The notes under the pieces were generated by a model that did no database searches, was not told the DNA's origin, and saw only the letters and a list, made by a program, of their open reading frames with translations. Positions 11,021 through 55,402 of a stretch of DNA of 64,000 bases are shown piece after piece (position 1 is the first letter of the stretch; every line of letters starts with the position of its first letter). The stretch spans positions 1,692,368-1,756,367 of the forward strand of contig NZ_LT800497.1 of assembly GCF_900166635.1 (NCBI RefSeq), read 5' to 3'. The position numbers were made by a program, and so were the translations under genes. Source of the stretch: Oceanobacillus timonensis (GTDB lineage: Bacteria > Bacillota > Bacilli > Bacillales > Amphibacillaceae).

Positions 11021-11767
11021 CTAATCTACCTCCAAAATGGTTGTGTGATTTAAATAAGGTTGATGGATAGTTGATAGCTTATCTGTAATAAACGTTACAT
11101 CGGAAAAATCACATATCTTTGCAAAGCTGACTTTATTCCATTTGCTGTCATCCGCAAGAAAATACGTGTCGGAAGCTCTTTCAATTGCCAATTGTTTCAT
11201 GGAAGCTTCTTCCGGATCCGGCGTTGTACAGCCGTATGTCATATCAATACTGTCTACGCCGAGAAAGGCTTTCGTGAATTGATAATTCATTAAAGAATGT
11301 TGGCTGGGAGCACCTACCATCGCTTTTGTAGAATGCTTTAATTTACCGCCGACAAGATAAGCTTCTATTTGCCTGTCTGCAAGCATGGAAGCATGAGCAA
11401 TACCATTAGTGACAACGGTAACAGATAAATTCGTGAGAAATGGAATCATTTCCAGTGTTGTTGTCCCTGCGTCTAAATAGATGACGTCATGCTCTTCCAA
11501 AAGTGAAACCGCATGCCTCCCTATATTCTTTTTTTGCTGACTGTTTTTGATTGTTTTTTCCTGGTATGTTAATTCTGTTCCAAAGGTAGCATTTAACTTT
11601 GCTCCGCCATGAATGCGCAGGAGGTGCCCTTTTTCTTCAAGATATGCAAGATCTCTGCGTATGGTGGATTCGGAGCAGTCAAGGCTCTCGATTAAATCAA
11701 CAGACTTAACTACACCGCTTTCATTTAAACGACGTAAAATATATTGATGGCGTTCATCTGTTAGCAT
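11021..11767 (-). CDS. fruR: DeoR-family repressor of the fructose operon
   Basis: 248 residues with an N-terminal DeoR helix-turn-helix (SVDLIESLDCSESTIRRDL, then HLLRIHGGA) and a C-terminal sugar-phosphate sensing domain (YLDAGTTTLEM, VVTNG, FLGVDSID). It is first in the fru operon and probably represses it until fructose 1-phosphate accumulates, as known for the family. The ATG at 11767 follows GAGGTG; a GTG at 11776 overlaps that site. Direct CAAAAAC repeats overlapping its own promoter are a candidate operator. Confidence 0.92.
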   Translation of the reverse strand: MLTDERHQYILRRLNESGVVKSVDLIESLDCSESTIRRDLAYLEEKGHLLRIHGGAKLNATFGTELTYQEKTIKNSQQKKNIGRHAVSLLEEHDVIYLDAGTTTLEMIPFLTNLSVTVVTNGIAHASMLADRQIEAYLVGGKLKHSTKAMVGAPSQHSLMNYQFTKAFLGVDSIDMTYGCTTPDPEEASMKQLAIERASDTYFLADDSKWNKVSFAKICDFSDVTFITDKLSTIHQPYLNHTTILEVD

Positions 11768-11787
11768 GACCTTCACCTCTTATTTTT

Positions 11788-11824
11788 AGTCTAGCACCAA
11801 AATCATTCAAAAACAACCAAAAAC
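11788..11824 (-). promoter_or_regulatory. fru operon promoter and candidate FruR operator
   Basis: On the minus strand a -35 TTGTTT (11811-11816) and a -10 TAGACT (11788-11793) are separated by 17 bp. Two direct repeats read CAAAAAC on the plus strand (11808-11814 and 11818-11824, 10-bp period) and overlap the -35, consistent with repression by a DeoR-type protein. The assignment is by position and repeat only. Confidence 0.6.
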
Positions 11825-11869
11825 ATTCTTTTTCGATTATTAGTTGTCTATTTAAAATAAAAATCATTA

Positions 11870-11898
11870 TTGACGCGATAAAGAATTCGGTTTATTAT
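11870..11898 (+). promoter_or_regulatory. Sigma-A-type promoter for the PTS IIC-like gene
   Basis: TTGACG, 17-bp spacer, TATTAT, lying 88 bp before the GTG start at 11986 and divergent from the fru promoter. Confidence 0.65.
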
Positions 11899-11985
11899 AA
11901 ATAGCACTTTCTATTTAGAATTAAATAACATTTCCCACTAATTGAAAGAAAAAGAATGAAAGAAAATTTTTAGGAGGTAAGGAAA

Positions 11986-13014
11986 GTGAAAGATACAACA
12001 AAGAAATACATCATTGACCGCATGTACAAAGCGTCACAAGGTTTGGCAAATGCTGTCTTAGTGACACTTGGTATTGGATTGTTAATTGAGACAATCGGAA
12101 CGTTTACAGGGTGGGAAGGTTTTTTATTAGTTGGTAATGCAGCTCAATTGATGCTTGCCCCGGCAATTGGTGCGGGAATAGCCTATCAGCTTGGGGGAAA
12201 TACATTAGTTATTTTTGGGGCTATGGCTTCCAGTACGGTTGGTGCGAATGCTTTATCGATGGCAGATGATGGAAGTTGGACGCTTATTACAGGACAGCCG
12301 ATTAGTGCGGTATTAGCGGCAGTTATTGCGATATGGGTCGGAAAGCGTGTCACAGGAAAAACATCGCTTGATATGATGGCAATTCCGTTTTGTTCTATAT
12401 TTGTAGGTGGGGTGGCTGGTGTTGGACTAGCCGCAATAACAACTCCGTTACTTGAGAAAATTAGTGATTATATTGCTGGCTCTACTTCAGGATCTCCGTT
12501 TATTTCAGCTATCGTCATTTCATTAGTTTGGAGTATCTTTTTAATGTCACCGGCATCTTCTGCAGCAATCGCAATTGCATTACAGCTGGACGAGATATCA
12601 AGTGCAGCGGCATTGATTGGCTGTACGGCTCAATTTGTAGGGTTTACCGCTATGTCTATCAAACAAAACAATTTAGGTGCGAATATTGCACAATTCTTTT
12701 TAACACCAAAAGTGCAGGTCCCCAATATTGTGAAGAATCCGCGCTTGGTTATCGGGCCGTTCATATCATCGATTATATGTGCACCAATAGCTATTTTATT
12801 ATTTGATTTTGAAGTTCCTTATGAACTGGCCGGCTTAGGTTTGAACTCCTTTATTGCGCCATTAAATATTTTAGCCAATCAAGGCGTGGGCGTTTTAATC
12901 ATGTATATTGTGGTTGGGGTGATTACGCCTGCCATTATTTCTGTGATGACTTACAAGTTACTGCAATTGAAAGGCTGGGCCAAAACAGGCGATTTGCATA
13001 TGGAAGTCCAATAA
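11986..13014 (+). CDS. PTS IIC-type membrane protein, PfoR-like
   Basis: 342 residues with about eight to ten hydrophobic segments, starting at GTG after TAGGAGGT. Sequences such as LAPAIGAGIAYQLGGNTLVIFGAM and FLMSPASSAAIAIALQL resemble the PTS_EIIC_2 family, which includes the PfoR proteins described as regulators of perfringolysin O in Clostridium. No EIIA or EIIB domain is fused to it, and the substrate is unknown. It is divergent from the fructose operon with a 218-bp shared control region, so it might respond to fructose. Confidence 0.8.
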   Translation: MKDTTKKYIIDRMYKASQGLANAVLVTLGIGLLIETIGTFTGWEGFLLVGNAAQLMLAPAIGAGIAYQLGGNTLVIFGAMASSTVGANALSMADDGSWTLITGQPISAVLAAVIAIWVGKRVTGKTSLDMMAIPFCSIFVGGVAGVGLAAITTPLLEKISDYIAGSTSGSPFISAIVISLVWSIFLMSPASSAAIAIALQLDEISSAAALIGCTAQFVGFTAMSIKQNNLGANIAQFFLTPKVQVPNIVKNPRLVIGPFISSIICAPIAILLFDFEVPYELAGLGLNSFIAPLNILANQGVGVLIMYIVVGVITPAIISVMTYKLLQLKGWAKTGDLHMEVQ

Positions 13015-46698: not shown

Positions 46699-46754
46699 GT
46701 ATAGGAAAAGTATAGAATTTGAATGAATAGCTCTGATTTATAGGCGGGTATAAT
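46699..46754 (+). promoter_or_regulatory. Candidate regulator site and promoter upstream of kinase 1
   Basis: Direct repeat GTATAG-GAAAA-GTATAG (46699-46704 and 46710-46715, 11-bp period) lies 33 bp upstream of a TATAAT box (46749-46754) with no good -35. The same repeat occurs before the response regulator gene at 50156-50172. Confidence 0.6.
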
Positions 46755-46848
46755 CGGATTAGGTCTTCTGGGGAAAAGTGAATCTTTGTAACAAAATGAA
46801 ATTCCAGGATATGCAATTTAAAAAATGATGTTAGAAAAGATGATAGCG

Positions 46849-49800
46849 ATGAAAAATAATTACGTGAAGCTGGGACTGATTTTGCTGCTTGTTTTCGCCT
46901 GTTTATCAGCTTTTCGGCTTATTTGGATGGACGTTTTTCAGAGTAGTACTCCTTTGGATATTGAAGAGGGAGAGCTTGATTTACGAGATTGGGATACAGT
47001 TGAAAAAGAAACTTTGCTATTGGACGGGGAATGGAATTTCTATCCATTCGCTTTTTTAATGGATGAAAATGAAACAGCACCAGTACCTGAAGAAACTGTT
47101 AAAGTCCCCGATGGCTGGAATAATATCTTGGGTTCTTCTACTGGTTATGGAACTTACCGTCTACAAATCAACGTTCCTTCAGGTCAAGACAGGAATTATC
47201 AATTATACATACCGAGTATCCGCAGTGCTTCTGACATCTATATCAATGGGGAGCAGCTGTCTTCATCAGGAAAAATTGCTGCTGAGAAAGAAGGTTTTAT
47301 AGCTGAAAATTCTCCGCAAAGTGTTGTTTTTACAGCAAATGAAGAAGGCGTTATAGATATTGTGATTCAAGCTGCCAATTATAAAGATATACGAAGTTTT
47401 AACAGTGGTATTATTCGTTCCATTCGTTTTGGAACAGAAGAGGCGTTGACTAATGAAGTGCAGTTTTCTATTTATATGCAGATTGCGATGGTCATCGTTC
47501 TTCTTATTCATTCCAGATATGCGTTCATCCTGTATTTGATTGGAAATCAAGATAAGCGGTTACTCTTTTTTTCTTTATTAACTTTTATTTATGCGGTTCT
47601 ATTTCTTCTTAGTGGAAAAGAAAAATTATTGCATGCCTTTTTCTATACGCAAAATGACTGGGGAATCCGATTTTTTGTAGCATTGGTATTGATAGAGTGT
47701 TATATTTTTCTGCAATGTACCAATCATCAAAAACTTCCTTATTGGAATAAAATATTCCCATATTTTCAATGGGGCGTATTTGGACTAGCCGCGGTAACAT
47801 TGTTTCTGCCGCTGACCTTATCGCAAATGATTGTCTTGTTACCTGCCTATCTTATCGCAGGTTGTGGCCTTGTTGGTATCGGTGTGTTGACGATGATACG
47901 ATCGTATAAGCAATCAGGAAACAGGAGTTTATTTTTAATCATATCCTGTGCTGCTGTTATTCATCAATTGATATGGGCATTGATATGGAGAGGAACCGGA
48001 GAATATATGCCGCATTATCCATTTGATTTGATTGTTGCCATCGTGTGTTTTATGGTGGTTTGGTTCAAAGGTTACTTTCGCGTACATGAGGAGACGAAAG
48101 AACTGGCCGCGACATTACAGCGGATGAATCAGGAAAAAGATCAATTTTTAGCAAATACCTCTCATGAATTCCGTAATCCATTGAACAGTATTTTATTACT
48201 TTCCAAAGCTGTGCGAGACAGGGAAGAAACAGCGATAACGGAACAAAGCAGGAATGATTTAAACACGGTTTTGAATGTAGGCAATCGAATGAACCTCCTG
48301 CTGACGGATTTATTGGAAGAGCGGCAATTGCAACAGGGGCAGCCAAGACTTGATAAACAGGTTATCAAATTGGAACCGATTGTTACAGGGGTAATAGACT
48401 TACTGCAATTTTCATCTAACGTGAAGAAGGTGCAAATTATCAATCGTATTTCTAAAACATTTCCTCCTGTATATGCTGATGAGAATCGGCTCACGCAAAT
48501 TTTATTTAATTTAATTAAGAATGCTATCAAATTTACGGATCAAGGGAATATTACTATTTCTGCAACAGTAAACGGCGATATAGCGGAAATTCATGTTACT
48601 GACACAGGGATTGGTATTAGCCGGGAAATGCAGAAACGGTTATTTCTTCCCTATGAACAAGAAGAAACGCCAGAAGGGATGACGCGGGAAGGCGGTTTTG
48701 GATTGGGATTAAGTATTACAAAACAGCTGGTAGAACTTCATGGCGGAACCATCCGGGTTGCCTCTGTAAAAGGAGAGAAAACAACTTTTACTTTTACGTT
48801 GGAATTAGCATTCACGCAAGAAGAATCAATACCCCTCTCTGGAGAGAATAAACGAACTATCAAAGTGAATGAGGAAACAGAACAAATGGAAACGCCGCCT
48901 CCTTTGCAACATGATGAAAAACCATCTATTTTGGCAGTAGATGATGATCCTGCCAGTTTATTGGCTTTACAAGCGGTTCTGCCGGATGATCTATATCATC
49001 TGGTGCTTGTATCCAGTCCTGATCAGGCATTGAAAGAATTGGAAAAGGGAGAATGGGATATGGTCATTTCGGATATAATGATGCCAAAAATATCCGGATA
49101 CAAGCTAACCAGAACGATTCGGGAAAGTTATTCTCTAACAGAACTTCCTATCCTGCTGCTGACAGGTGGGAATTCGGATATCCAAGCTGCTTTTGCAGCA
49201 GGCGCAAATGATTATATAACCAAACCGGTAGAGGCAACAGAGCTGAAAACCCGTCTGAATTCGTTGATTACGCTGAAACGGGTTGCTGAGCAGCAGCTAC
49301 AATTGGAAACAATGTGGCTGCAAGCACAAATACAGCCGCACTTCTTATTTAATACATTAAATGCAATTAGAGCATTGAGCGAATGGGATCTGGAGGAGAT
49401 GAGAAAGTTGCTGGATGAATTCGGAAATTTATTACGCAGTAAATTTCAGTTCCAGCAAATGCATTTGTTGATTCCTTTAGAAGAAGAATTACGTCTCGTT
49501 CACTCCTATCTATATATTGAACAAGTTCGTTTTGGAGAAGCGCTGCAGGTGAAATGGGATTTGGAAAATGCAGTGCAACACGGTATTAGGCAAGGAAAAG
49601 GGAAAGGGACAGTAAGCATCCGTTTGAAAAGAGAAGCAGCTAACCACAAAGCAATGATTACGGTAGAAGATGATGGAACAGGAATGGAAGAAGAAGAGAT
49701 CACAGCCATTTTTAAAGGGGAATCGAACAGTGAATCAGGTGTAGGCATTATAAACTTGGAAAAAAGGTTGCACCGGCATTATGGAAAAGGGTTAACAATA

Positions 49801-49857
49801 GACAGTGCACCTGGACAGGGGACAAAGGTATCTTTTGAAATCGATACAGCTGATTAG
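46849..49857 (+). CDS. Hybrid sensor kinase 1 (7TMR-DISM, HisKA, receiver, LytS-like module)
   Basis: 1002 residues. Order: one N-terminal membrane segment; an extracellular beta-sandwich domain (about 45-195); seven membrane segments (7TMR-DISM type, about 205-400); a HisKA domain with His near 439 (SHEFRNPLNS) and an ATPase domain (N-box NLIKNAIKF, DTGIGIS, GFGLGLS); a receiver with Asp near 741 (VISDIMMPK); then a LytS-type module (QIQPHFLFNTLN, His near 830) and a second ATPase domain. The second ATPase domain lacks 17 residues before NAVQHG that the paralogue has, so it may be inactive. The ATG at 46849 is chosen by alignment with the paralogue; 46825 is possible. Confidence 0.88.
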   Translation: MKNNYVKLGLILLLVFACLSAFRLIWMDVFQSSTPLDIEEGELDLRDWDTVEKETLLLDGEWNFYPFAFLMDENETAPVPEETVKVPDGWNNILGSSTGYGTYRLQINVPSGQDRNYQLYIPSIRSASDIYINGEQLSSSGKIAAEKEGFIAENSPQSVVFTANEEGVIDIVIQAANYKDIRSFNSGIIRSIRFGTEEALTNEVQFSIYMQIAMVIVLLIHSRYAFILYLIGNQDKRLLFFSLLTFIYAVLFLLSGKEKLLHAFFYTQNDWGIRFFVALVLIECYIFLQCTNHQKLPYWNKIFPYFQWGVFGLAAVTLFLPLTLSQMIVLLPAYLIAGCGLVGIGVLTMIRSYKQSGNRSLFLIISCAAVIHQLIWALIWRGTGEYMPHYPFDLIVAIVCFMVVWFKGYFRVHEETKELAATLQRMNQEKDQFLANTSHEFRNPLNSILLLSKAVRDREETAITEQSRNDLNTVLNVGNRMNLLLTDLLEERQLQQGQPRLDKQVIKLEPIVTGVIDLLQFSSNVKKVQIINRISKTFPPVYADENRLTQILFNLIKNAIKFTDQGNITISATVNGDIAEIHVTDTGIGISREMQKRLFLPYEQEETPEGMTREGGFGLGLSITKQLVELHGGTIRVASVKGEKTTFTFTLELAFTQEESIPLSGENKRTIKVNEETEQMETPPPLQHDEKPSILAVDDDPASLLALQAVLPDDLYHLVLVSSPDQALKELEKGEWDMVISDIMMPKISGYKLTRTIRESYSLTELPILLLTGGNSDIQAAFAAGANDYITKPVEATELKTRLNSLITLKRVAEQQLQLETMWLQAQIQPHFLFNTLNAIRALSEWDLEEMRKLLDEFGNLLRSKFQFQQMHLLIPLEEELRLVHSYLYIEQVRFGEALQVKWDLENAVQHGIRQGKGKGTVSIRLKREAANHKAMITVEDDGTGMEEEEITAIFKGESNSESGVGIINLEKRLHRHYGKGLTIDSAPGQGTKVSFEIDTAD

Positions 49858-49891
49858 TAAATAATTGATTATATGAGAAAAACCAAATAAA

Positions 49892-49935
49892 ACTTCATTC
49901 TGCAGGGAGATGATCTTTTTTCTGTAGAATGAAGT
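49892..49935 (+). terminator. Terminator of kinase 1
   Basis: ACTTCATTCTGCAG / CTGTAGAATGAAGT stem, 16-base loop, followed by GTTATTTTT. It separates kinase 1 from the regulator-kinase 2 unit. Confidence 0.85.
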
Positions 49936-50264
49936 GTTATTTTTAAGTCATTTTTTCCGGTTTTGAAAGAGATGAGAGCAGGAATAAAAAGAGCATTTAT
50001 TCCATTAAAAACCAATAAAAAAGTTCTATAGATGACAGTTATTTTTAATATAGTATGATATGATTAAAAAAACAGAAAATTTTATCATGGATAATAAATT
50101 AGGCGATGTGTGTGAAAAGTAACTGGAAATGTGAATTGTAAAGCTGCTGTTTCATGTATAGAAATTGTATAGAAAAAGAGGAATAGATGTTATTTTGTAG
50201 CATGTATCTTTGGATTATAATAAAAGTTTGGAACACAGACAAGAGATAATCAGGAGGAGATTCA
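49936..50264 (+). promoter_or_regulatory. Control region of the response regulator-kinase 2 operon
   Basis: The direct repeat GTATAG-AAATT-GTATAG (50156-50161 and 50167-50172) lies 43 bp upstream of TATAAT (50216-50221); the -35 region is weak (TTTTGT at 50193). This suggests an activator-dependent promoter. GGAGGAG lies before the ATG at 50265. No ORF with a ribosome binding site is seen in the rest of the 407-bp gap between kinase 1 and the regulator gene. Confidence 0.6.
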
Positions 50265-51266
50265 ATGCTTCGTATAGCAATTATAGACGATGAACATTTA
50301 GCATTACAATATTTGAATTTACTGTTACGTAAACTAGAAGGTGTACATGTCACCGGGAAATATGTAGAGGCTGATGATTTAATCCACCATATCCAGGCCG
50401 AACACGTAGATGCTGTATTTATAGATATACATATGCCTGCAATTAAAGGAACAGATCTGGCGGAACAGCTGTTAAATATTCAACCTTCTTTACAAATTGG
50501 TTTTATTACGGCCTATGATGAATATGCGGTGAAAGCTTTTGAATTAAATGCAGTGGATTATATTCTGAAGCCTGTAAAACAGGAGCGTTTAGCTGTAACG
50601 GTACAGCGGATAATGGAAAGAAAGACGATGGATCAGCACACTGCAACAGGGGAATCGACCACCGTTATTAAGGACTTGGGAGCTTTACAGATATATCAGG
50701 ATAATAAGCGGGCAGATGTGAAATGGCGTACGTCCAAAGCAAAAGAATTATTTGCCTACTTTATTTACAACCATGAAAATACCATTTTAAAAAGCGATTT
50801 GATCGAATTGCTGTGGAGCAATCTCTCGTGGGAAAAGGCAAATGCCCAGTTGTATACAGCTGTTTACCAAATTAGAAAGGTTATGGAGCAACAAGATATT
50901 CCTATTAAAATCGTCAGCCAAAAAGAATTTTACCAAATTGATATGGATCGTAGTATACATATTCAATCGCGCGAGTTTAAACTTGCCGCTTATGATTTAT
51001 TAAAAAGAAAAACGATACATGCAGAACAGTATTTCACTGTACTGGAGGCGTATCAAGACGAGTACTTAGCCGGATTAGATTACTTTTGGGCTGTTAATGA
51101 GAGAAAAATCCTGAAAGATGTATGGCTGGAGCTTATCATTCGATTGGCAGATTATTTGCATCGTTATGAGAAAACATCATCCTATAATATATCAAAATTA
51201 GAAAGTTTAACTGATTTTGATACCGAAGCGGCAGAAATCGTGAAAGAAAAAAACTGGATTCACTGA
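50265..51266 (+). CDS. Response regulator with OmpR-type DNA-binding and SARP-like (BTAD) output
   Basis: 333 residues. The receiver domain (about 1-120) has the acidic pair IIDDEH, the phosphoacceptor Asp near 53 (VFIDIHMP), Thr in FITAYDE and Lys in YILKPVK. A winged-helix domain follows (about 145-230: TSKAKELFAYFIYNHENTI, LYTAVYQIRKVME) and then a helical bacterial transcriptional activation domain. This is the architecture of SARP-type regulators fused to a receiver (COG3947). It is flanked by the two kinases; kinase 2 starts 27 bp downstream, so they are co-transcribed. It probably binds the GTATAG direct repeats. Confidence 0.88.
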   Translation: MLRIAIIDDEHLALQYLNLLLRKLEGVHVTGKYVEADDLIHHIQAEHVDAVFIDIHMPAIKGTDLAEQLLNIQPSLQIGFITAYDEYAVKAFELNAVDYILKPVKQERLAVTVQRIMERKTMDQHTATGESTTVIKDLGALQIYQDNKRADVKWRTSKAKELFAYFIYNHENTILKSDLIELLWSNLSWEKANAQLYTAVYQIRKVMEQQDIPIKIVSQKEFYQIDMDRSIHIQSREFKLAAYDLLKRKTIHAEQYFTVLEAYQDEYLAGLDYFWAVNERKILKDVWLELIIRLADYLHRYEKTSSYNISKLESLTDFDTEAAEIVKEKNWIH

Positions 51267-51293: not shown

Positions 51294-54200
51294 ATGAAGC
51301 GAGATTATATCCGAACGGGAATTTTTGTGATTCTCTGTATTATCAGTTTGTCTGTTTTGCGATTGATCTGGGTAGGTATATTTCAAGAAAATATAACTCC
51401 TGCTATTGAAGATGGAAAGCTTGATTTAAGTTCACGGGAAATAAAAGATAGAAAAACGCTGGTACTGGATGGAGAATGGGATTTTTACCCGTCGAGGTTT
51501 TTAATGCGGGAAGATGAATTACCTGCAGAAACACCAGAAGCGATCCAAGTTCCACATGGATGGGAGAATAATCTTGGTTCTCCTTTTGGTTACGGTACTT
51601 ATCGACTGCAAATGAAGGTGAATCCGGATGATAATCAGAACTTTAAATTATATATACCAAATATCCGTACATCTTCTGAAGTCTATGTGAATGGCCGCAA
51701 AGTAGCAGAGACTGGCCGGCCTGCTGAAACAGAAATGGCCTATGTTGCGGATATTATGCCTAAGACAGTAACTTTTACAGCCGATGAAGAAGGAAACATC
51801 GATCTGATGATTCAAGTTGCAAATTATATAGATAGCAGAGATGGAGGTATTTATCTCTCGCTTCGGTTAGGAACAGATGCAGCAATTACAAGAGAAGTTC
51901 AGCTTACCAATTATTCTCAAGTTGTCATTGCGGCTATTCTGTTGATGCATACTTTATACACATTGATTATTTATTTTATAGGGGGAAGAGATAAAAAGGT
52001 TCTTTCTTTCTCGTTGTTAACCTTCAGTTTATTTTCCGGTTTTTTGTTTTATACTGGTGAAAAGTTACTGCAGCAATTTATTAATATAGGTTATGAATTA
52101 GAATTTTGGATGATACATACGGTGTATTTAGTCATTTTTTATGCACTGATTCAATGTATCGATCATCAAAAACTGCCTTATTGGAATAAAATCTTTCCAT
52201 TTTTTAAATGGGCAATGGCTGCATTAGCTGTGTTAACTATCTTTTTATCGATGCCGCAAATTTTGGCACTTCGTCCTGTATATAATATATTTGCTCTTAT
52301 TACGGTGGTTGTTACCAGTGTGTCGATTATTCTGATGTATAAAGATAAACCGAAAGCGAGAAACCTTATGCTGCTTGGCTTTATTGCCATTTCCAACCAT
52401 GGAATATGGAATTTTATATGGTCAGGAAAAAGTGTTTATCTTACTTTTTACCCTTTCGATATGATAATTGCTGTTACTTGTTATACGATTGTCTGGTTCC
52501 AGGGATATTTTCAAAAGTATAGAGAAACAAAGGCACTAGCGGAAAGATTGAAAAAAGTGAATGAAGAAAAAGACCAGTTTTTAGCAAATACATCTCATGA
52601 ATTCCGTAATCCGTTAAATAGTATATTGTTGCTGTCGGAGGCGGTACGAGACAGAGAAGAAACAACATTATCTAAACAGAGTATGGCGGAATTAAACACT
52701 GTCTTAAATGTAGGACAGCAGATGAACCTGTTGTTGACAGACTTATTGGAGACCAGAAACTTACAGATTAATAAACCGAGATTAAATAAACAGGTGGTTA
52801 CATTGGAGCCGATTGTCACAGGGATTATCGATGCATTGCGTTTTTCATCTGACGTAAAGAATCTGTCCATTGTCCAGCTGATTCCCGGAGATTTTCCACC
52901 TGTGTATGCTGATGAAAATCGAGTGAAACAGATTATGTTTAATCTCATAGAAAACGCGATTAAGTATACCATGCAAGGATCCATTACCATCTTGGCTTCT
53001 GTTAAAGAACAGAACGCAGAAATTCATGTGACCGATACAGGCATTGGGATTAGCAGGGATTTGCAGAAGAGGATATTTCAGCCTTATGAACAAGGACATC
53101 CGGAAAATGAAATGTCTGAAGGTGGTTTAGGATTAGGATTAAATATAACCAAAAAGTTAGTAGAACTGCATGGCGGAACCATTTGGGTTTTTTCTGAAAA
53201 AGGAGAAAGGACAACCTTTACATTCACGTTAGCATTGGCATCACAAGAAGCGATGGAATCGTCTTCTGAAACCCAAATTGAAAAGGCTGCCAAGAAGAAA
53301 GACAGGGAACCCATAGAACAGCCAGCCTGGAAAAATGAGCAGGCACCATCTATCTTAATCGTCGATGATAGCCCAGCGAGTTTATTGGCGTTAAAGGCTA
53401 TTATTTCCAATGATATGTATAACCTGGTCTTTCTTTCTTGTTCCAAACAAGCGGTAGAGGAACTGAAGAAACGGGATTGGGGTATGGTTATCTCGGATAT
53501 TATGATGCCGGAAATATCAGGATATGAACTTACCAGGATTATTCGGGAACGTTATTCCCTGACAGAATTGCCTGTGCTACTTCTTACTGGTGGAACGACG
53601 GATATACAGGCAGCTTTTTTAGCTGGCGCAAATGACTATATTGCCAAACCTGTTGAGCCGGTGGAGTTGAAAGCACGGATGGATTCTTTGATAACACTGA
53701 AGCGTGTTTCCGAACAACAGGTGCAGCTGGAGACTTCCTGGCTGCAGGCACAGATTCAGCCGCATTTTTTATTTAATACATTAAATTCCATCATGGCATT
53801 AAGTGAATTGGATGTAGAAAGAATGAGAAAGCTTCTGAATGAATTCAGTAATTTGCTAAGAAGTAAATTTCAATTTCAGCATATGAAAGAACTGATCCCT
53901 CTGGAAGAAGAATTAAATATTGTCCGTTCGTATCTGTATATTGAGCAGGTCCGTTTTGGAGAAGCTTTACAGGTAGCGTGGAACCTGGAGGAAGAACGAG
54001 GTATATATGTCCCGTTTTTATCCATTCAGCCGCTGGTAGAAAATGCGGTACAGCATGGGATCCGGAATAATAAAGGGAGAGGAACAGTTACCATTACCTG
54101 TAAAAAAGATATTACCCGTTCTAGAGCAATTATCACGGTGGAAGATGATGGAACAGGAATAGAAGAAACAGACATTCCAGCTATTTTAAAAGGAGAATCA

Positions 54201-54338
54201 AATAGCAAATCGGGAGTCGGCATTTTGAATGTGGATAAACGATTACAACAGCATTTTGGAAGAGGATTACAGATTGTCCGTTCGCCGGGCCAGGGAACAA
54301 AAGTGTTTTTTGAGGTGGATTTGCCTTCAACGGAATAA
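51294..54338 (+). CDS. Hybrid sensor kinase 2 (paralogue of kinase 1)
   Basis: 1014 residues with the same domain order as kinase 1: N-terminal membrane segment; extracellular sandwich (LDGEWDFYPS, GYGTYRLQMKV, LYIPNIRTSSEVYVNG); seven membrane segments; HisKA with His near 435 (SHEFRNPLNS); ATPase domain; receiver with Asp near 735 (VISDIMMPE); LytS-type module with His near 822 (QIQPHFLFNTLN); and an intact second ATPase domain (IQPLVENAVQHG, VEDDGTG, GVGILNVDKRL). The extracellular domain resembles carbohydrate-binding folds; the ligand is unknown. The ribosome binding site is weak (AGAAGAG). A terminator follows at 54376-54417. Confidence 0.9.
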   Translation: MKRDYIRTGIFVILCIISLSVLRLIWVGIFQENITPAIEDGKLDLSSREIKDRKTLVLDGEWDFYPSRFLMREDELPAETPEAIQVPHGWENNLGSPFGYGTYRLQMKVNPDDNQNFKLYIPNIRTSSEVYVNGRKVAETGRPAETEMAYVADIMPKTVTFTADEEGNIDLMIQVANYIDSRDGGIYLSLRLGTDAAITREVQLTNYSQVVIAAILLMHTLYTLIIYFIGGRDKKVLSFSLLTFSLFSGFLFYTGEKLLQQFINIGYELEFWMIHTVYLVIFYALIQCIDHQKLPYWNKIFPFFKWAMAALAVLTIFLSMPQILALRPVYNIFALITVVVTSVSIILMYKDKPKARNLMLLGFIAISNHGIWNFIWSGKSVYLTFYPFDMIIAVTCYTIVWFQGYFQKYRETKALAERLKKVNEEKDQFLANTSHEFRNPLNSILLLSEAVRDREETTLSKQSMAELNTVLNVGQQMNLLLTDLLETRNLQINKPRLNKQVVTLEPIVTGIIDALRFSSDVKNLSIVQLIPGDFPPVYADENRVKQIMFNLIENAIKYTMQGSITILASVKEQNAEIHVTDTGIGISRDLQKRIFQPYEQGHPENEMSEGGLGLGLNITKKLVELHGGTIWVFSEKGERTTFTFTLALASQEAMESSSETQIEKAAKKKDREPIEQPAWKNEQAPSILIVDDSPASLLALKAIISNDMYNLVFLSCSKQAVEELKKRDWGMVISDIMMPEISGYELTRIIRERYSLTELPVLLLTGGTTDIQAAFLAGANDYIAKPVEPVELKARMDSLITLKRVSEQQVQLETSWLQAQIQPHFLFNTLNSIMALSELDVERMRKLLNEFSNLLRSKFQFQHMKELIPLEEELNIVRSYLYIEQVRFGEALQVAWNLEEERGIYVPFLSIQPLVENAVQHGIRNNKGRGTVTITCKKDITRSRAIITVEDDGTGIEETDIPAILKGESNSKSGVGILNVDKRLQQHFGRGLQIVRSPGQGTKVFFEVDLPSTE

Positions 54339-54375
54339 GATATACATCCAATCTTTAGATAGAACAGATGTGATG

Positions 54376-54417
54376 AAAAAGAGGTTATTACCGAATCAAG
54401 GTAATAGCCTCTTTTTA
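54376..54417 (+). terminator. Terminator of the regulator-kinase 2 operon
   Basis: Perfect stem AAAAAGAGGTTATTACC / GGTAATAGCCTCTTTTT (one mismatch) with a short loop and T-run. Confidence 0.9.
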
Positions 54418-54523
54418 CGTTTGAAAAGATAAACCACTTTTCAACAATTACCAATCACCTTTTCTCATATCGTATTGCCTTTTCGCTCACACTAATGAAA
54501 AAAGAAGGGAAGGACATTGAAAT

Positions 54524-55402
54524 ATGCGAAAATGTGGTTTTATTTTCTTACTAATACTGATAATCATACCATTTCATATCCCTTCATCCATTCATGCAGA
54601 GCAGGAATTGCCTGCAATGAAGGTCCATTTTATTAATGTTGGCCAGGGAGACAGTATTTTAATTGAAACGCCTTTGGACCGAACTATTTTAATTGATGGC
54701 GGCCCTCCGGAAGCTGGTGATACGGTCGTTAATTATATAAAGGAACAACGGATTAATGAAATTGATTTAATGGTTGCTACCCACCCGGATGTTGATCATA
54801 TTGGCGGGTTAGTACAGGTGTTGGATGAAGTAGATGTAGGCGGTGTACTTGATATCGGGAAGCTTCATCCAACAAAGACATTTGCTTCTTATATGAACCG
54901 GATTCGTGATCTGCAAATACCAATGACCATTGCTGAAAAAGATACACCCATTGAAATTGATCCAATGATTTCAATGGACATTTGGAATGCTGCACAACCC
55001 TTAACCTCTCCTAATGCATCCTCTCTTGTCATCAAATTAAATTATGGTGAAACCGATATGCTATTCATGGGCGATGTTGGAAAAAAGGAGGAAAAAGAGA
55101 TGTTGAAAAAACATGATGTAGATGCAGAAGTAGTTAAAATAGGGCACCATGGCTCGAATACGAGCTCGTCTATGGCGTTTTTAAAAGCAGTAGACCCGGA
55201 AATGGCTATCTTAACCTATAGCAAAGATAATAACTATGGCCATCCTGTTCCTCGAGTTATTGACCATCTAAACGAAATCAATGCGTTGATTTATTCTACA
55301 GCGGCCCTTGACAGTATTACTGTGGAAACGGATGGAGAGACACTAATGGTCAATCCTAAAATGAATCCAATCCAAAAATTTGTGGACGAACAAGCAAGCT
55401 GA
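54524..55402 (+). CDS. Secreted metallo-beta-lactamase-fold protein (ComEC C-domain-like)
   Basis: 292 residues. A signal peptide (FIFLLILIIIPF, cleaved near IHAEQE) is followed by a metallo-beta-lactamase fold: VHFINVGQGDSILIE, DGGP, THPDVDHIGG (metal ligands Asp and His), FMGDVG, IGHHGSNTS and an Asn/Gly-His NYGHP near the end. It lacks the membrane channel of ComEC but resembles its C-terminal nuclease-like domain. Related secreted proteins are proposed to be nucleases or phosphoesterases. It starts 186 bp after kinase 2 and has its own terminator-separated unit. Confidence 0.85.
   Translation: MRKCGFIFLLILIIIPFHIPSSIHAEQELPAMKVHFINVGQGDSILIETPLDRTILIDGGPPEAGDTVVNYIKEQRINEIDLMVATHPDVDHIGGLVQVLDEVDVGGVLDIGKLHPTKTFASYMNRIRDLQIPMTIAEKDTPIEIDPMISMDIWNAAQPLTSPNASSLVIKLNYGETDMLFMGDVGKKEEKEMLKKHDVDAEVVKIGHHGSNTSSSMAFLKAVDPEMAILTYSKDNNYGHPVPRVIDHLNEINALIYSTAALDSITVETDGETLMVNPKMNPIQKFVDEQAS

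Follow-up and report, generated by a model that had tools for sequence, protein, structure and literature searches.

A conserved direct repeat as candidate operator of a SARP-like response regulator in Oceanobacillus timonensis and relatives

The direct repeat GTATAG-N5-GTATAG, found before both transcription units of a two-component locus in Oceanobacillus timonensis, very probably serves as operator for the response regulator whose gene lies there between those of two hybrid kinases; judged from sequence comparison, this regulator would switch a surface/biofilm programme. The locus resides in a stretch of 64,000 nucleotides (contig NZ_LT800497.1, positions 1,692,368 to 1,756,367, assembly GCF_900166635.1), termed the window in the following, and the kinase genes on either side of the regulator gene are termed HK1 and HK2. 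In all, 159 genomes of the family were searched; they carry G-numbers, with G000 for the own genome of 4.49 Mb to which the window belongs.

Two exact repeats and their promoters

The elements of the two promoters are:

46699..46715, + strand: direct repeat GTATAG-GAAAA-GTATAG before HK1, an exact match 33 bp before TATAAT
46749..46754, + strand: TATAAT, probable -10 of HK1, identified by eye
50156..50172, + strand: direct repeat GTATAG-AAATT-GTATAG before the regulator gene, an operator candidate conserved in subfamily promoters
50201..50221, + strand: promoter block CATGTAT...TATAAT, conserved in an alignment of nine promoters, with a probable -10 at 50216-50221

A sequence-only reading of the window had reported the two copies, TATAAT boxes 33 and 43 bp behind them and the lack of a good -35 in either promoter. 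All of this stands: both copies are exact in both half-sites, the TATAAT boxes read off the sequence lie at 46749-46754 and 50216-50221, and by eye no good -35 is present at 16-18 bp spacing. In front of HK1, a possible third, degenerate half-site (GAATGA) follows 11 bp further on. The own genome contains no more than these two exact matches, one before HK1 and one before the regulator-HK2 unit. When up to two mismatches are allowed, the window yields eight matches as compared with a mean of 2.4 in 100 shuffles.

Conservation before regulator genes

The regulator belongs to a subfamily with 45-79% identity that occurs in eight other genomes of the 159, the named close relatives being Oceanobacillus, and is joined by a 68% identical paralogue in the own genome. 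Nine of the 13 other subfamily regulator genes are preceded by the repeat with 0-2 mismatches within 320 bp, in seven cases 79-99 bp before the start and in the two others at 141 and 293 bp. An alignment of nine subfamily promoters, the window included, features two conserved blocks, TGTATAGAATTTGTATAG and the -10 block CATGTAT...TTATA, and the box before the regulator gene is retained down to 50% protein identity. The sequence-only reading had named absence of the repeat from orthologous loci as the finding that would speak against it; since the repeat is conserved there, this objection falls away for the regulator promoter. The CATGTAT element, conserved shortly 5' of the -10 in the subfamily regulator promoters, may be a further half-site or a promoter element.

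A giant adhesin next door and its loss in the window strain

A search with a wider form of the site revealed further copies of the repeat just 3' of the kinase genes in relatives. The gene that follows the two-component genes in G078, G073, G077, G085, G086, G154 and G004 encodes a surface protein of 2134-3128 residues. Two of these adhesins were scanned for domains and contain a Big_8 domain, six collagen-binding stretches and 11 or six Cna-B domains, respectively; one, scanned against NCBIfam, carries an LPxTATN sorting signal. All eight subfamily adhesins, i.e., those seven (0-2 mismatches) and the one of G003 that resides on another contig, have the repeat upstream, and by eye all eight promoters show, behind the repeat, TTCTCT or a similar word at a distance of 10 bp and TAYNAT at 33-34 bp. 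The best single hexamer chosen by the program lies at 33-34 in six of the eight, while the summed score peaks at offset 5 because the spacing varies by one. Decayed remnants of regulator genes, with an adhesin-type repeat in front, were also noted between kinase genes (L122 11400-11961 in G085; L125 reversed, 11431-12030 in G077).

The own genome contains neither an adhesin match at E<=1e-15 nor a Cna-B domain. What is left in the window is:

54356..54427, + strand: deletion scar from the adhesin stop codon through the terminator, 82% identical to G073 and G078

In the same comparison with G073 and G078, window positions 54437-54526 match the stretch before the next gene with 84-86% identity. 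Because scar and flank match the relatives and the adhesin itself is absent, the adhesin has been lost in the window strain by a deletion that left the terminator behind.

Exact matches across the family

The 159 genomes contain 44 exact matches of the repeat, and reversed-pattern controls are similar in rate genome by genome, so that the bare count is background. We examined 42 of them (one had no locus and one was dropped as identical context), and 12 of these precede the gene set described here: six regulator genes, HK1 of the window, three giant adhesins (G138, G139, G141), a GH8/exopolysaccharide operon in G026 and an operon for an LPXTG adhesin in G020. The regulator match of G085 is located inside an upstream-extended reading frame, yet 98 bp before the homologous start. 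The other 30 fall into coding sequence, precede other genes or lie where no reading frame was found. Whole-genome counts at background, for the exact as well as for the one-mismatch form, are what would be expected if the shared word were coincidental. Against this stands that the only two exact sites of the genome share one locus, that the repeat is conserved at orthologous places and that 12 of 42 family sites are found at this gene set, and we regard the probability of a coincidence as negligible.

A site at position 1377 on the reverse strand of L266 (G102) reads TGTATAGATTTTGTATAG with TATGAT at offset 10, and lies 213 bp before a 464-residue, membrane-protein-like reading frame.

Exopolysaccharide operons and cyclic di-GMP genes

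An operon of the own genome (C3:200226-206777; L119 2227-8778) comprises DUF2334, glycosyltransferase 2, UDP-GlcNAc 2-epimerase and GH8 genes and ends with the gene for the 68% regulator paralogue. It looks like a synthase-type exopolysaccharide operon and its start carries TTGTACAGATTTTGTACAG, 34 bp before TATTAT. The tripartite pattern TGTNNAG-N4-TGT-N14-TTCTCT is exactly matched at five places in nine genomes, namely at the adhesin promoters of G073, G077, G085 and G086 and at this operon, and the operon is also among four own-genome matches of TTGTNNAG-N3-TTGTNNAG, for which two controls gave 0 and 0. The same pattern finds 11 matches in the eight subfamily genomes, seven at regulator or adhesin promoters and four elsewhere or unchecked, as compared with four control matches. 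The operon at C3:200226 is predicted as the strongest remaining target in the own genome. We did not take the other three own-genome matches as targets; judged by eye, one of them falls within a dehydrogenase-like gene (L278), another is close to a lysyl-tRNA-synthetase-like gene (L275) and the third has no clear gene around it (L277).

A related operon situated beside regulator and adhesin genes in G026 carries TGTATAGTTTTTGTATAG with TATAAT at 10, and the operon beside two regulator genes in G036 has a weaker site, again with TATAAT at 10. A matrix with 27 sites was used to scan operon starts, and no site with a score of at least 12 was present there in 12 fetched loci that contain a GH8 gene and have no such regulator in the stretch. 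Sites followed by a -10 at offset 10 are also found before genes for cyclic di-GMP enzymes, an MHYT-GGDEF-EAL protein in G030 (L247 3809, + strand) and a GGDEF protein in G036 (L323 3061, - strand), and both adjoin genes for SARP-type regulators. In G020, the exact repeat, here without a -10 at 10, precedes the gene for an LPXTG protein with a putative adhesive domain, and this row of genes ends in a regulator gene. Taken together, the sites before exopolysaccharide operons, cyclic di-GMP genes and the adhesive protein point at a surface/biofilm regulon.

The regulator resembles SARP proteins

50265..51266, + strand: response regulator with receiver, winged helix and shortened BTAD, of SARP-like fold

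The regulator has 333 residues. Its receiver belongs to PF00072, with D8, D9, D54, T82 and K102 invariant in 61 aligned relatives, and its winged helix stays below the Pfam Trans_reg_C cut-off (21.6 versus 26.2 bits), as distinct from regulators of the OmpR/PhoB type. As a VIA-align comparison returned matches of the receiver domain only, the C-terminal half was modelled separately. The model of residues 130-333 (pLDDT 92.9) retrieved six PDB chains in Foldseek at E<=1e-3, all of them AfsR or EmbR, both of the SARP type, with TMq values of 0.61-0.71. The sequence-only reading had referred to SARP regulators, and the predicted fold of the C-terminal half supports it in this respect, the protein being SARP-like. 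We use this term rather than canonical SARP because neither the window regulator nor its paralogue gives a match to Pfam BTAD (PF03704), as distant relatives do. In the alignment, the BTAD of the window regulator is shortened internally and at the C-terminus. Among the best 120 proteins listed, counted by hand, none of the 34 nearest has a Pfam BTAD match, as opposed to 83 of the 86 others. In the sources, this regulator class is only named 'SAPR family', 'LytTR family' or plain 'response regulator'.

Distant relatives: co-occurrence and promoter register

Regulator type (E<=1e-20) and giant adhesin (cut-off as above) are both present in 59 of the 159 genomes; 15 have only the regulator, four only the adhesin and 81 neither. 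Four of the 15 regulator-only genomes (G012, G017, G024, G079) are matches of the receiver alone. In the fetched loci, the two genes are often neighbours, several of them divergent. A genome_contigs scan yielded nothing but distant relatives and did not enter the analysis.

A site matrix was built only from 17 subfamily sites, without use of the -10 offset, and run over the upstream stretches of distant adhesin and regulator genes as well as over the complete distant loci that had been fetched (943 kb on both strands together), some of them because they held an exact repeat match. The 33 distant adhesins considered represent the distant genomes with fetched adhesin loci, a subset of the 63 genomes with adhesin matches. 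Twenty-six of them feature TGTNNAG-N4-TGTNNAG with a site score of at least 9 and a -10-like hexamer exactly 10 bp on; the sites of G140, G145 and G141 stem from the whole-locus scan and were placed before the adhesin by coordinates. At offset 10, the mean -10 score amounts to 4.2 for 25 sites, including that of G030 which was added by eye after the offset was known, whereas 2000 permutations reached -1.25 at best. After thinning to 17 sites, the mean was 4.9 and the best permutation -0.29. With the -10 placed at -12 to -7, the distant half-sites start at -40 and -29. Distant regulator promoters mostly lack a site in the matrix scan. For the regulators of G128, G131, G132 and G135, the reverse-complement reading of a shared divergent site reached p<=0.01.

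Three further sites deserve mention. Strong sites with TACAAT at offset 10 in G031 (L253 3430, + strand) and G036 (L323 1017, - strand) point away from the regulator gene and run antisense towards the neighbouring kinase gene. A weaker site with TATGAT at offset 10 is located in G037 (L250 803, + strand) before an AbrB/MazE-like gene beside the adhesin.

Weighing the operator reading

Several observations weigh against the repeat being the operator of the regulator. With one mismatch allowed, the own genome contains 11 matches and the two reversed-pattern controls 18 each; because control counts are no lower, such looser sites are at chance level, and only the exact form and its place are informative. 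For the same reason a wider regulon deduced from loose patterns was dropped. The tripartite pattern with one mismatch likewise gives 28 matches versus 25 in controls, so that only its five exact matches inform. The -10 at offset 43 in regulator promoters is not significant, as 226 of 2000 permutations reach it. For four of the 13 subfamily regulators, no repeat was found in the 320 bp before the gene; these are the second copy each of G078 and G073, the gene of G004 and the own paralogue, the last being the final gene of the exopolysaccharide operon that carries the box at its start. No site was found at the exopolysaccharide operons beside regulator genes in G093 and G102. Seven of the 33 distant adhesins do not show site and -10 in the 10-bp register: four have no site (G019, G036, G031, G113), G030 has a low-score near-site with TATAAT at offset 10, G130 has an extra T in the repeat and the start region of G129 was not found. 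Among the 26 that do, seven offer only TAATGT, a weak -10, and in several distant adhesins the best-scoring hexamer lies elsewhere than at offset 10. The Fisher p of 2.6e-24 for co-occurrence of regulator and adhesin was computed ignoring common descent.

It is conceivable that the box belongs to another DNA-binding protein, e.g., one of the OmpR/PhoB type, that controls surface genes, with the SARP-like regulator as a fellow member of its regulon. Other winged-helix regulators also bind 11-bp direct repeats, and distant SARP-type regulator genes are mostly devoid of a box of their own. However, the box tracks the regulator type, as adhesin and regulator occur together with few singles, sites scoring at least 12 are lacking at operon starts in the 12 regulator-less loci, and the -10 register equals that of AfsR, the fold of which is predicted for the regulator. 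We therefore consider a foreign DNA-binding protein unlikely. Even less probable, in our view, is repression through the box. Auto-repression is common among regulators, but the location of the box at about -40 to -23 in distant relatives and, in the window, at about -63 to -46 or -73 to -56, provided that the -10s are placed correctly, together with the poor -35, suits an activator. SARP proteins are described as activators (PMC10972967, PMC10936776).

If the repeat is indeed the operator of the regulator, a signal would reach the hybrid kinases and phosphate would be passed to D54 of the receiver. Two regulator molecules would then sit side by side on the two TGTNNAG half-sites, which are spaced by 11 bp, and bring RNA polymerase to promoters that lack a good -35. 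The regulon would comprise the regulator-HK2 operon, the neighbouring giant cell-wall adhesin of relatives and the exopolysaccharide operon. The sites with their positions and conservation, co-occurrence, promoter spacing, the predicted fold and the loss of the adhesin were obtained by computation; what we infer from these is binding to the box, phosphorylation, activation, a role in biofilms and whatever the box before HK1 may still do.

The kinases and the box before HK1

46825..49857, + strand: HK1, hybrid kinase with HisKA, HATPase, receiver, His_kinase and second HATPase
51294..54338, + strand: HK2, hybrid kinase with a 7TM sensor region (7TMR-DISM_7TM below its cut-off)

The sequence-only reading had proposed that the regulator activates itself and both kinases. 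For the regulator-HK2 operon, the data are best read as self-activation, which is well supported by inference. The part concerning HK1 is weak, because a box directly before HK1 was found in the window genome only and in no other genome, and because HK1 lacks 17 residues of its C-terminal kinase domain. This in-frame gap in the second HATPase lies directly before ENAVQHG; the residues are kept in HK2 and in seven other aligned kinases. HK1 looks degenerate and its LytS-type half may be inactive.

Possibly, the two boxes of the window are alike only because promoters were copied along with tandemly duplicated genes, and HK1 is now preceded by a relic with no function left. In line with this, the two kinases are paralogues and HK1 shows the gap. 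In G085, about 450 bp with decayed remnants of a regulator gene separate the HK1 orthologue from the box upstream of it. The box before HK1, found there in no other genome, may stem from a unit that has been lost. On the other hand, both of its half-sites are intact despite a spacer off the consensus, and TATAAT follows at 33 bp as in the adhesin promoters. We give a functionless HK1 box close to, though not quite, an even chance. For the regulator promoter, the same explanation fails because the box there is conserved down to the identity given above.

A possible switch in activation mode

Promoters of the subfamily with shortened BTAD have the box 33-43 bp from the -10, those associated with full-length regulators 10 bp. 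Tentatively, and with rather more reservation than for the operator itself, we propose that a phosphorylation-controlled SARP module is widespread in this Bacillota family and runs a surface/biofilm regulon via TGTNNAG-N4-TGTNNAG, including giant Cna adhesins, synthase-type exopolysaccharide operons and, in some genomes, cyclic di-GMP enzymes. In the lineage of the window, the mode of action may have been switched: BTAD would have been lost in part and the box moved from AfsR-like positions (-40/-29) to the 5' side of a weak -35 (about -63 to -46, or -73 to -56), suggestive of a transition from sigma-adaptation-like to upstream, class I-like activation. Because the contrast is a single one in evolutionary terms, we offer a causal link between BTAD and box position as no more than a suggestion. 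In the literature searched, which covered few subscription papers, we met no account of SARP-type response regulators that control genes for adhesins or polysaccharides in Bacillota. Our analysis puts forward an operator, and with it an initial regulon, for a large class of Bacillota response regulators. It would extend the SARP mechanism from antibiotic clusters to genes for surface adhesion and matrix, and two activator positions can be compared here in a natural setting, the difference going along with a shortened activation domain.

Comparison with known systems

AfsR, a SARP from Streptomyces, shares the predicted C-terminal fold (8k60, 8hvr) and direct repeats with an 11-bp period. The half-sites of the distant relatives start at about -40 and -29, as do the repeats of its afs box (PMC10936776). 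At the sequence level, direct repeats with this period, as expected for SARP targets, are present at the putative targets. In the classical SARP geometry, the 3' repeat overlaps the -35 region and is about 8 bp away from the -10. This applies to 26 of the 33 distant adhesins, in which the -10 follows the heptamer at 10 bp, and neither to the window (33 and 43 bp) nor to the subfamily adhesins (33-34 bp). In contrast to AfsR, a receiver is fused in front here and hybrid kinases are linked, the predicted targets are adhesin and polysaccharide genes instead of antibiotic clusters, and the window subfamily combines a shortened BTAD with a distance of 33-43 bp between box and -10.

EmbR from Mycobacterium, a protein without receiver, has the same predicted C-terminal fold (2ff4, 2fez). 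Unlike the window regulator, it carries a C-terminal FHA domain (PMC10936776). Receiver and winged helix are common to the window protein and regulators of the OmpR/PhoB type. The latter also feature head-to-tail 11-bp repeats. The window regulator differs from them by a winged helix under the Trans_reg_C cut-off that is followed by a BTAD-like helical part. Finally, the window receiver resembles those of LytR/BtsR-type regulators and the window kinases end in a LytS-type His_kinase domain, like the kinases partnering that type, whereas the output domain is SARP-like instead of LytTR.

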